This document shows, piece after piece, positions 32,390-36,641 of a DNA stretch of 64,000 nucleotides. The notes under the pieces were generated by a model. It searched no databases, had not been told where the DNA came from, and saw only the letters and a list, made by a program, of their open reading frames with translations. Positions within the stretch are counted from its first letter, which is position 1. Each line of letters starts with the position of its first letter. Both the position numbers and the translations under genes were made by a program. Source of the DNA: Ruegeria sp. YS9 (GTDB lineage Bacteria > Pseudomonadota > Alphaproteobacteria > Rhodobacterales > Rhodobacteraceae); the NCBI RefSeq assembly GCF_024628725.1, contig NZ_CP102409.1, positions 1,583,001 to 1,647,000 of the forward strand, given 5' to 3'.

Positions 32390-33088
32390 ATGCTGACCAA
32401 GAAGCAATTGGATTTGCTGGAATTCATCCACAAACGCGTGCAGGCGGACGGTGTTCCGCCCAGTTTTGATGAAATGAAGGCTGCTCTCGACCTGCGGTCG
32501 AAATCCGGCATTCACAGGTTGATCACCGCATTGGAGGAACGCGGGTTTATCCGCCGCCTTGCCCATCGCGCTCGGGCCATTGAGATTGTGAAACTGCCCG
32601 AAAGCCTTGGCGGCGAGCCAACGGCCGGCTTTACACCCCGCGTTATCGAAGGTGACAGGCCCAAGGGTCCCCGCCCTGCGAACGTGGAGCCTGTATCGGT
32701 GGACGCGCTGGAGCTGCCAGTCATGGGCCGGATCGCAGCCGGTGTTCCCATCGAAGCAATCAGCCATGTTTCGCATCACGTGGCCGTCCCCGGCCCCATG
32801 GTTTCGGGACAGGGTCAGCATTATGCATTGGAAGTTCGCGGTGATTCGATGATCGATGCCGGCATCAATGACGGTGATGTGGTCGTCATCCGGGAAACCT
32901 CGACCGCGGATAACGGCGACATTGTGGTTGCTCTGGTCGAAGATCAGGAAGCGACCCTCAAGCGGTACTTCCGCCGCGGCAATGCAATCGCGCTGGAGGC
33001 TGCAAACCCGGCCTATGAAACGCGCGTCCTGCCCGAAGAGAAGGTCAAGGTTCAGGGCCGGTTGGTCGGACTGATCCGCACCTATTGA
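32390..33088 (+). CDS. lexA: LexA repressor
   Basis: The 232-residue SOS repressor has an N-terminal winged helix (about 1-65, [39 protein letters not shown]) and a C-terminal S24 protease domain. The self-cleavage bond is Ala117-Gly118 (RIAAGVP), and the catalytic dyad is Ser153 (GDSMIDAGI) with Lys191. The linker between domains is longer than in E. coli, as in other alphaproteobacteria. Autoregulation is indicated by the LexA box over its promoter. Its stop codon overlaps the end of the convergent comEC by 7 bases. Confidence 0.97.
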
Positions 33089-35162
33089 GCCTGCTTGGAA
33101 TGACGGTCCCCGGCAGGTTTCGGGGACCAAAGCCGATGGCCGGTCATGTCTGCGCTTGAGGTCAGCTTTCCGTTCGAAACCGACAGGCTGCCGGTTTCGT
33201 ACAACCGTTCCGGATCGAACACCCCGCACGGACCTTGCAGGGCAAGCGCAACAGCCGAGATGATGATCTGGTTGTCCCGACATTCGTCAAACGCGCGCGC
33301 CGCCCTTTTTCCGGTGATATGGATGATCTCATAGTCCTTCAGCGGGTAACGTTGAACGATGCTGCCGTCCGGCCATCTGAGCGCCGCCTCGATCTGATCA
33401 ACGCCGTCCCCGTCATTTTCAAGCCAGACACCGGCGACAAACCCGCTGCCTTTGCTTTTACTGAGGGCCCGCCCCTTGTCGGTCATGACCCCTACCAATC
33501 CGCCGTTTTCAGCGATCAGAACATCCGGTCTGTGCCCCGAGTTCCAAAGCAGAAATGCCAGGACAACAGGCACTGCTCCGGCCCGCCGTGCATGTCCCTG
33601 CCACAAGGCCATCCACAAGGCGCCGAATGCGACCAGTGGCAGGATGTACCATGGCGGGCTGACCACAAAACCCTGCGCCCCCTCAAGGTTCGACACCCAG
33701 TCGGAAACCGTAAGGATCCAATGCAATGCCCACCCCATGACGGTCAGGGCAAGTGCCTCCAGTCCAAACGGGGCAAGAAATGCAGCGACGACGGCAGAGG
33801 GTACGACGAGAAGCCCCATGACGGGAACGGAAAGCAGGTTTGCCAGCAGACCGTAATGGGACATCGTATTGAAATGCGCCGCACCAATGGGGGCTGTCGC
33901 AAGACCTGCAATTGCCGATGACATCACCACGCCAACGACCGGTTTCAACCAGTTTGGGCCGGGTAACGGGCCTACCTCTCGCAACGCTCCGAAGACGGCG
34001 ACCAAGGCTGTGGTTGCGGCGAACGACATTTGAAATCCGGGGCTCAGCAGCGACTCGGGTCGAAGAACCAGAACGATCACGGCGGCAACAGCAACCGCAC
34101 GCAGCGAAATCGCGCGTCGGTCGATCAACACGGCCCCCAGCATGACGCTGACCATGACAAAGGCCCGTTCGGTTGCAACGTTCCCCCCGGACAACAACAG
34201 ATAAAGGGTTGCGGCACAAAGCGCGAGCACAGCGGCCACTTTCCGAACCGGAAGTCGCAACGCCACAGGAGGGCACAGCGACAGACCCAATCGGCAAGCC
34301 ACGAACACGAAACCGGTCAGAAGCCCCATGTGAAGCCCGGAAATGGCCAACAGATGCGCAAGGTTGGACGCCCGCAAGGATGAAAGCGTCTCCTGCCCCA
34401 TCCCGCTGCGATCTCCGGTGGTGACGGCCGCGGCAAATCCACCGATTTCTCCGGGCAGGATCTGCCTGACCCGCTGCGAAATGGCCATGCGGATCGCAGT
34501 GACCCGAATGCCGGCAATCCCCTCTGTCGCGGGTGCGATGGTCCGGCAATCCCCTCTGTCGCGGGTGCGATGGTCATGACCGGGACGCGGGTATAACCGA
34601 CCGCGCCCAATCGTTGAAACCAGGCATGGCGACGAAAGTCGAACCCTCCGGGCTCGACCGGGCCTTGCGGCGGCGAAAGATGACCGGTGGTCATAATGCG
34701 CTGCCCCGGTGCGATAGTGCCCGCCGGACCATGAACGGAAAGACGGATGCGCTGCGGCCTGCGCTCCTGAGGCACATCCCCTATGCGTACCTGATCAAGC
34801 GTCAACCGCAACGCATCCGAGGCAGACCGATCCATGGCGACGACCCTCCCCTCGACAGGGCCATAATATCGCCACGACAGAACCGGTTCCGCCACCATAT
34901 GGGCGCGAACGCCTGCCAGAATGAAACCGGCAGCGATCAGCGCCCCCCCGATTGCCAACGTTCCCACCCCCGGTGGCAGCCGGCGGCGCAAGGCGACTAG
35001 AGCAATTCCAAGACAGACAAGACCGGCATAAACTGACCGATCCGGCTCGACGCGGACGCCGAAATAAAGACCAATCCCCGTCGCCAGCAAAACCGGCGTC
35101 CAGGGGAAAAGGTAGCCTGTCTGGTGCAGCAGCGCGGCCTCGACCCGTGCAAGAACACGCAT
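33082..35162 (-). pseudogene. comEC: comEC/rec2 DNA-uptake channel gene, frameshifted
   Basis: Two overlapping frames together make one ComEC protein. The 5' part (from the ATG at 35162) has membrane segments and the DUF4131/OB-like domain up to residue 196 (YTRVPVMTIAPATEGIAG), then runs on in a wrong frame to 34317. The other frame carries the Competence domain (VRQILPGEIGGFAAAVTTGDRSGM, LLAISGLHMGLL) and the membrane bundle to 33082. The break coincides exactly with a 32-bp tandem repeat; deleting one copy restores one frame of 682 residues. ComEC carries single-stranded DNA across the inner membrane. An in-frame ATG at 34488 could allow reinitiation. A real mutation or an assembly error are both possible. 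Confidence 0.9.
34511..34574. repeat. Tandem 32-bp duplication inside comEC
   Basis: Bases 34511-34542 and 34543-34574 are identical copies of a unit beginning CCGGCAATCCCC and ending GTGCGATGGT. Since 32 is not a multiple of three, the second copy shifts the comEC frame at this point. Confidence 0.97.
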
Positions 35163-35240
35163 GGTTGCCCCCGTCCTTCGGGCTCGTTAGACAGGCGTCA
35201 AACTATGCCAGATACGGTTACCAAAAGGTTAATCCTCACC

Positions 35241-36641
35241 ATGACTGAACAGGTCGTCACTCGTTTTGCCCCCTCGCCCACCGGTTTCCTGCATATCGGC
35301 GGCGCGCGCACTGCATTGTTCAATTGGCTGTATGCGCGTGGTCGGGGTGGCAAATTCCTGCTGCGGATCGAAGACACCGATCGCGAACGTTCGACACCCG
35401 AGGCGACCGCCGCGATCCTTCAGGGCATGGCCTGGCTTGGCCTTGATCACGACGGTGATGTGATCAGCCAGTTCGAAGGGGCCGCCCGTCACGCCGAAGT
35501 CGCGCATCAGTTGCTGGCCGAGGGCAAAGCATACAAATGTTTCTCGTTTCAGGAAGAAATCGCGGCTTTCCGGGACCAAGCGCGCAGCGAAGGGAAATCA
35601 ACCCTGTTCCGCAGCCCATGGCGGGACGCCGATCCCTCGACACATCCGGATGCACCTTTTGCCATACGCATCAAGGCGCCTCAGGACGGGGTGACCGTGA
35701 TCCACGATCAGGTTCAGGGCGATGTGAGCATCCGCAACGACCAGTTGGACGACATGATTCTTCTGCGCTCGGACGGAACACCCGTCTACATGCTGGCAGT
35801 CGTCGTCGACGATCACGACATGGGCGTCACCCATGTCATCCGCGGCGACGATCACCTCAACAATGCCGCGCGGCAAATGATGATCTACGAAGCCATGGGC
35901 TGGGACGTTCCGGTCTGGGCGCATATCCCGCTGATTCACGGGCCTGATGGCAAGAAGCTGTCCAAGCGCCATGGTGCGCTTGGAGCGCAGGAGTATCAGG
36001 CCATGGGCTATCCCGCAGCCGGGATGCGCAATTACCTGGCCCGGCTGGGCTGGAGCCATGGCGACGATGAGTTTTTCACGGACGCGCAGGCAAAGGACTG
36101 GTTCGATCTGGATGGGATCGGCAAAAGCCCTGCACGGTTCGATCTGAAAAAGCTTGAAAACCTGTGTGGACAACATATCGCAATCTCGGACGATGCTGCA
36201 TTGCGGCAAGAGATCGAAGCATATCTGGCCGCAGCAGACCTTCCGCCCCTTACTGAGACACAATCCAGTGATCTGGAACGTGCGATGTATTGCCTCAAGG
36301 ACCGGGCGCGCACCTTCCCTGAACTGCTTGAAAAGGCTCATTTTGCACTGACAAGCCGCCCGATCGCTCCGGATGAAAAAGCCGCAAAGGCGCTGGCAAC
36401 TGTATCCGATGGTATACTGACGGAATTGACGCCGCATCTGCAAAATGTTAGCTGGTCGCGGAACGAACTGGAGGAGGCACTGAATTCCTTTGCCGAGTCA
36501 AAGGAGCTCAAGTTCGGCAAGCTGGCCGGTCCGCTGAGGGCCGCTCTGGCGGGTCGTGCCGTTACGCCTTCGGTTTTTGACATGATGCTTGTGCTGGGAC
36601 GGGAAGAAACCCTGGCGCGGCTTTCTGAAGCAGCGAAATAA
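35241..36641 (+). CDS. gltX: Glutamyl-tRNA synthetase
   Basis: The 466-residue class I synthetase charges tRNA-Glu. The HIGH motif is [18 protein letters not shown] near residue 15, and the KMSKS loop appears as [23 protein letters not shown] and [18 protein letters not shown] are family blocks. The C-terminal anticodon-binding domain reads KLKFGK-type sequence ending GREETLARL. The ATG at 35241 gives the usual start; an ATG 12 codons earlier (35205) exists. The 78-base gap to comEC's divergent start holds its promoter. Confidence 0.95.

Follow-up and report, generated by a model that had tools for sequence, protein, structure and literature searches.

The window, by which we refer to the whole 64-kb stretch of DNA that was analysed, belongs to a genome of 4,297,788 bp in 6 contigs. 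On its minus strand it carries the comEC gene, flanked by two genes which we take, from their translations, to be lexA and gltX (Table 1). Within comEC there is an exact tandem duplication of 32 bp, whose two copies lie head to tail, and as the 33rd base also matches, the array covers positions 34511-34575. When this unit was searched for with up to 3 mismatches allowed, there were 2 matches in the window, both of which are the copies in this array, and 0 in 100 shuffled windows; no exact match to the unit was found outside the array in the whole 4,297,788-bp genome. The tails of lexA and comEC overlap by 7 bp (window positions 33082-33088).

Table 1. Features at the comEC locus (positions are those of the window).
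Feature	Position	Strand	Basis and remarks
lexA	32390..33088	+	Open; convergent with comEC; presumed from translation; constraint control
comEC 3' fragment, 468-aa ORF	33082..34488	-	Competence (PF03772) channel domain
comEC 5' fragment, 281-aa ORF	34317..35162	-	Residues 1-207 of ComEC (DUF4131), remaining 74 out of frame
Copy 1 of 32-bp unit	34511..34542	.	Sequence search of window and genome
Copy 2 of 32-bp unit, identical	34543..34574	.	Sequence search; 33rd matching base at 34575
gltX	35241..36641	+	Open; divergent from comEC; presumed from translation; constraint control; start codon chosen by us

Since 32 bp do not make up a whole number of codons, the duplication shifts the reading frame after residue 207. 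The effect of this is seen by comparison with P0001, a whole ComEC protein of 682 aa. The 281-aa ORF corresponds to residues 1-207 of P0001 (206/207 identical) and then runs through its out-of-frame tail, while the 468-aa ORF corresponds to residues 215-682 (463/468 identical), and over both pieces 669 of the 675 compared residues are identical. In a tblastn search with P0001, the locus in the window is matched in two different frames, by residues 1-207 and 197-682, and the overlap between the two matches consists of the duplicated residues. The downstream frame is open upstream as far as 34794, and the earliest ATG, GTG or TTG in it is at 34488. In P0001 the DUF4131 and Competence domains of Pfam, whose presence together in one protein marks the ComEC/Rec2 family, are both found, whereas in the window both score over their cut-offs on separate ORFs, DUF4131 on the first piece and PF03772 on the second. 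Judged from these domains and frames, the comEC of the window is a broken member of ComEC/Rec2. The genome holds one match to PF03772, and a second copy of comEC compensating for the loss is thereby ruled out. The original prediction, viz. that comEC is split by an exact 32-bp tandem duplication, is borne out by the two copies, the two frames and the whole, near-identical P0001.

The distribution of the two-copy state was determined from related proteins and loci. In the protein search 8000 candidates were scored, 6580 passed and the best 120 were listed; the best match among those listed is P0001, which is whole, 99% identical and represents a cluster of 29 sequences, with 2 contigs. As this cluster was drawn at 90% identity, its 29 members do not equal 29 isolates of the same species; P0001 itself would belong to the same species as the strain, judging by its 99% protein identity. 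The nearest named relatives of this comEC are from Ruegeria. The broken 281-aa form (P0121) is, in contrast, a singleton: its one sequence comes from a single contig of 3,244,635 bases, which is also the length of the contig that holds the window. Among related comEC loci, 80 of 80 (the best 80 of 260 found) have a frame of at least 670 codons open across the site; as these are the best matches, broken alleles could be under-represented among them, and one interrupted gene, that of G012 described below, falls outside this set. In an alignment of the site from the window and 8 of these loci, the extra 32-bp copy is present in the window alone. Further, a 501-base query around the site found matches in 36/36 same-genus relatives, and in the 7 of them that matched it end to end the corresponding stretch is 466-469 bases long. 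It had been proposed that sister genomes be searched for one versus two copies, and this comparison places the two-copy state in this genome only. The two allele states are thus seen between this genome and P0001, i.e. across sequences and not inside one clone.

Other interrupted or shortened forms of comEC were also encountered. In a genus search of 37 genomes, 23 of which (this one included) are from this genus, the frame is open for at least 684 codons in 21 of the 23, the exceptions being this genome (570 codons) and G012 (591 codons). In G012 (locus L159) an in-frame stop lies late in comEC, near residue 587 of P0001, and the rest is aligned end to end. In the family sample, a comEC match was found in 277 of 296 genomes and 19 were without one; among the matches listed (150 of 277), 4 are under 600 codons, viz. 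this genome, G188, G339 and G273. The short match in G339 is due to a contig end and that in G273 lies near a contig start, while in G188 (locus L160, contig of 4.3 Mb) P0001 is matched in three different frames, which could be real decay or sequencing error. As in the window, comEC is thus interrupted in G012 and, unless by sequencing error, in G188; however, the interruption is a stop codon in G012, a set of frame changes in G188 and a tandem duplication in the window. Based on the few broken genes among the genus and family genomes, loss of comEC occurs now and then.

Of the shortened proteins, P0123 (227 aa, metagenomic, from a contig of 8,734 bases) follows P0001 to residue 204 and is then out of frame, so that its break lies 3 residues before that in the window. 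However, the ten extra residues expected from the duplication are not seen before the loss of frame in the protein comparison, and due to this it is apparently not the same event; the break could stem from fragility of the site, from an unrelated indel or from a sequencing error. P0122 (272 aa) and P0125 (300 aa) keep to P0001 as far as residues 249 and 288, respectively. None of P0122, P0123 and P0125 carries the out-of-frame tail of the window, by which they are ruled out as sisters of the same event. P0126, from Ruegeria sp. HKCCD7221, is a ComEC of 475 aa that ends near residue 477 and belongs to a cluster of 18 members, and it is possibly a naturally shortened comEC common to several strains. 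P0125 and P0112 are complementary pieces (residues 1-288 and 263-674 of P0001) from contigs that are each 62,848 bases long, which suggests another split comEC, perhaps through insertion.

The age of the break was examined by assigning changes by parsimony, piece by piece, to the branch of the window or to that of L031, its nearest relative from a named collection; ambiguous changes, which numbered 18-21 in the 5' piece and 68-72 in the 3' piece, were left out of the counts. With L032 as outgroup, the nonsynonymous/synonymous counts for the 3' piece are 29/65 on the window branch and 32/69 on the L031 branch, and those for the 5' piece are 9/22 and 17/31; with L037 as outgroup they are 30/65 and 29/67 for the 3' piece, and 10/23 and 16/27 for the 5' piece. 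The four flanking genes likewise give no consistent difference between the window and L031 branches, the respective counts being 15/59 and 17/66 for gltX, 21/65 and 22/55 for moeA, 5/34 and 3/42 for lexA, and 4/49 and 7/61 (L032) or 9/59 and 3/49 (L037) for gltA, whose reading frame in this count began one codon early. Hence, in parsimony counts with two outgroups, the window branch shows no sign of decay or relaxed constraint in comEC, from which it follows that the break is recent, and a long-standing pseudogene is ruled out by the unchanged constraint. At residue 516 the window has R where P0001 has W, as do 45 of 54 relatives (gaps excluded); either constraint may here be starting to relax, or the difference may be a plain polymorphism. 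The window thus presents the features of a recent pseudogene: an exact duplication breaks the frame, the relatives are without it and the gene is otherwise undecayed. With the whole, near-identical P0001 and the absence of relaxed constraint, the earlier suggestion of a recent loss by duplication is supported.

The explanation that we consider likely is a recent, strain-private loss of comEC function through an illegitimate tandem duplication, which would be revertible without being an evolved switch and would leave the strain a donor, not a recipient, of DNA carried by gene transfer agents (GTA). A 32-bp segment of comEC would have been copied in tandem as the DNA was replicated or repaired, probably through illegitimate slippage. 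The frame would then shift after residue 207. The 281-aa product would be without the channel and an internal ATG would be the sole start of the 468-aa piece, from which we infer that the gene yields no working ComEC. The two ends of the unit have 1 bp in common, and its folding is no better than that of shuffles. Due to these features the origin is probably illegitimate slippage and not an evolved repeat, and hairpin-driven instability of the unit is ruled out by its folding. A deletion between the two 32-bp copies, by slippage or recombination, would be expected to restore comEC, and by precedent reversion through the loss of one copy is plausible. Reversion of a capsule-gene duplication in pneumococci reportedly restores the gene. 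Against this explanation, an assembly error at this single place and ribosomal frameshifting inside the array are both possible.

If the first of these possibilities were correct, the genome would be truly single-copy and its comEC whole, and the duplication would be an assembly or sequencing error. Such an error would agree with the facts that the near-identical P0001 is whole, that the frame is open in all of the 80 best related loci of the 260 found and that the broken 281-aa form is known from a single sequence. However, the assembly has the look of a finished genome, with 6 contigs, a completeness of 100 and a contamination of 0.06; contig 1 starts on the first base of an ORF which we take to be dnaA-like, and contig 2 and the Ruegeria sp. 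THAF33 plasmid NZ_CP045385.1 match each other over their first 2.7 kb. Further, exact tandem arrays with units of 12-300 bp were scanned for in a 400-kb sample of the genome, which contains no N, and in the 64-kb window. The sample gave 8 array rows, whose units (12, 18, 21, 54 and 72 bp) are all divisible by 3, and the comEC array is the only exact array in the window; it is hence the sole one in these 464 kb whose unit is not so divisible, and an assembly prone to duplications was not seen over this length. The control genome G001 gave 0 arrays in 397.5 kb of unmasked sequence, after 73 rows arising from a masked run of N were dropped, and the 80 related loci (891,619 bases) gave 1, a unit of 14 bp present three times, outside comEC. 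These signs of quality, which concern the genome at large, lower the likelihood of an artefact at this site, and we regard it as unlikely. Among the arrays themselves, the 14-bp one (L109:6424-6465) lies just past comEC, and its sequence appears to be the same as that at the end of lexA in the window. Exact 18-bp repeats lie densely at another place in this genome (L127:8864-9161); their units are multiples of 3, and they are perhaps part of a repetitive coding region.

In the original prediction the duplication was offered either as a reversible, phase-variable switch or as a recent loss. The latter part agrees with our results, whereas an evolved switch does not, since the two-copy state was found in this genome only and the frame is open in the 80 best related loci. 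According to passages of a review (PMC11868660), a phase-variable locus is recognized by a high switching rate and reversibility, and such a switch would here mean that cells gain and lose the second copy at high frequency and benefit from either state. Identical tandem copies can indeed slip away, P0123 leaves the frame near the same residue, and passages of published work report that duplications in pneumococcal capsule genes control phase variation (PMC4022640) and that a reversible tandem duplication turns competence on in S. aureus (PMC3486894). However, the two-copy state is found in one genome only, the repeat is not conserved at the site in the relatives, of which the 8 that were aligned carry no older repeat, the folding of the unit does not exceed that of shuffles, and P0123, without the extra ten residues, apparently records a different event. 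Further, with 1 bp shared between the ends of the unit, nothing points to an older repeat on which a switch could act. Phase variation of comEC is absent from the titles of the papers found to mention comEC and phase variation. A phase-variable switch is thus very unlikely, and it is highly improbable that the duplication serves in nature to turn the receipt of GTA DNA on and off, by which clones would alternate between full participants and donors only. A split but working ComEC, with the DUF4131 and channel pieces made separately or joined by ribosomal frameshifting, is extremely improbable, as, although the break lies between the two Pfam domains and the downstream frame is open throughout the array, this frame has no start codon before 34488, promoter-like sites in 34300-35400 number 0 against 0.3 expected by chance (a weak point), the first piece bears 74 out-of-frame residues and the same arrangement is seen in 0 of 80 relatives (the best 80 of 260).

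Returning to a recent loss of function, its consequence is best considered in relation to GTA. In Rhodobacter capsulatus, according to passages of PMC10883770, PMC6473078 and PMC6209664, ComEC, ComF, ComM and DprA serve the receipt of GTA DNA, the ComEC dependence of RcGTA DNA receipt being cited there to Brimacombe 2015. In this genome dprA and a ComM-family gene are open and over their cut-offs; the comF match (75.3 bits) is below the curated cut-off of 233.55, which only 2 of 14 control genomes pass. A GTA cluster, in which 10 ORFs were scanned of 19 listed, contains a TIM-barrel gene, a tape-measure gene identified with PHROGs, and open genes identified with Pfam for terminase, portal, capsid, adaptor and tail. 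The terminase, portal, capsid, tail and TIM-barrel genes of an RcGTA-type element are thus present and open in one cluster. Between its terminase and portal genes lies a 322-aa plus-strand ORF (L163:16395-17363) that runs against the direction of the cluster. Based on the role of ComEC in GTA receipt, which presumably extends to Rhodobacterales in general, and the retention of the main GTA genes, the strain is predicted to be able to give but not to receive GTA DNA. For the earlier wording, a loss of competence, a better description in this group is probably that the ability to receive DNA from gene transfer agents is lost. Competence in Ruegeria is absent from the titles of the papers found to mention Ruegeria, natural transformation and competence.

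The inactivation of comEC is thus real-looking, recent and probably revertible, ordinary as a mutation and mildly interesting for GTA biology. If real, it makes a marine roseobacter with GTA genes into a comEC mutant of natural origin that could probably revert, in which giving would be separated from receiving GTA DNA and which could be used to test whether it is receipt that selection maintains. It also serves as a reminder for annotators that a "split comEC" can be one mutation deep.

Three known systems can be compared with this case, each as described in passages of the cited work. The RcGTA system of R. capsulatus shares with it the same gene family, related bacteria and the presence of GTA genes in the genome; however, the role of ComEC was established there through gene deletion, whereas here it is inferred (PMC10883770, PMC6473078, PMC6209664). 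In pneumococcal capsule genes, spontaneous duplications control phase variation (Waite 2001, 2003, via PMC4022640), and as in comEC, a short spontaneous duplication within a reading frame turns a gene off; however, high-frequency phase variation is reported for the capsule, whereas comEC, a DNA-uptake gene, is represented here by a single sequence. In S. aureus, about 1e-2 to 1e-3 of the cells lost the activity from a sigH duplication during one overnight culture, some of these losses lying in the reporter plasmid, and a short-junction duplication was lost more often than it formed (PMC3486894). Since the duplicated segment is far longer there (1,888 bp in one case), this loss rate is not transferable to comEC. 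The sigH and comEC cases are alike in that a spontaneous tandem duplication alters DNA uptake, but in S. aureus the duplication creates a gene fusion by which competence is turned on, whereas here 32 bp turn comEC off.
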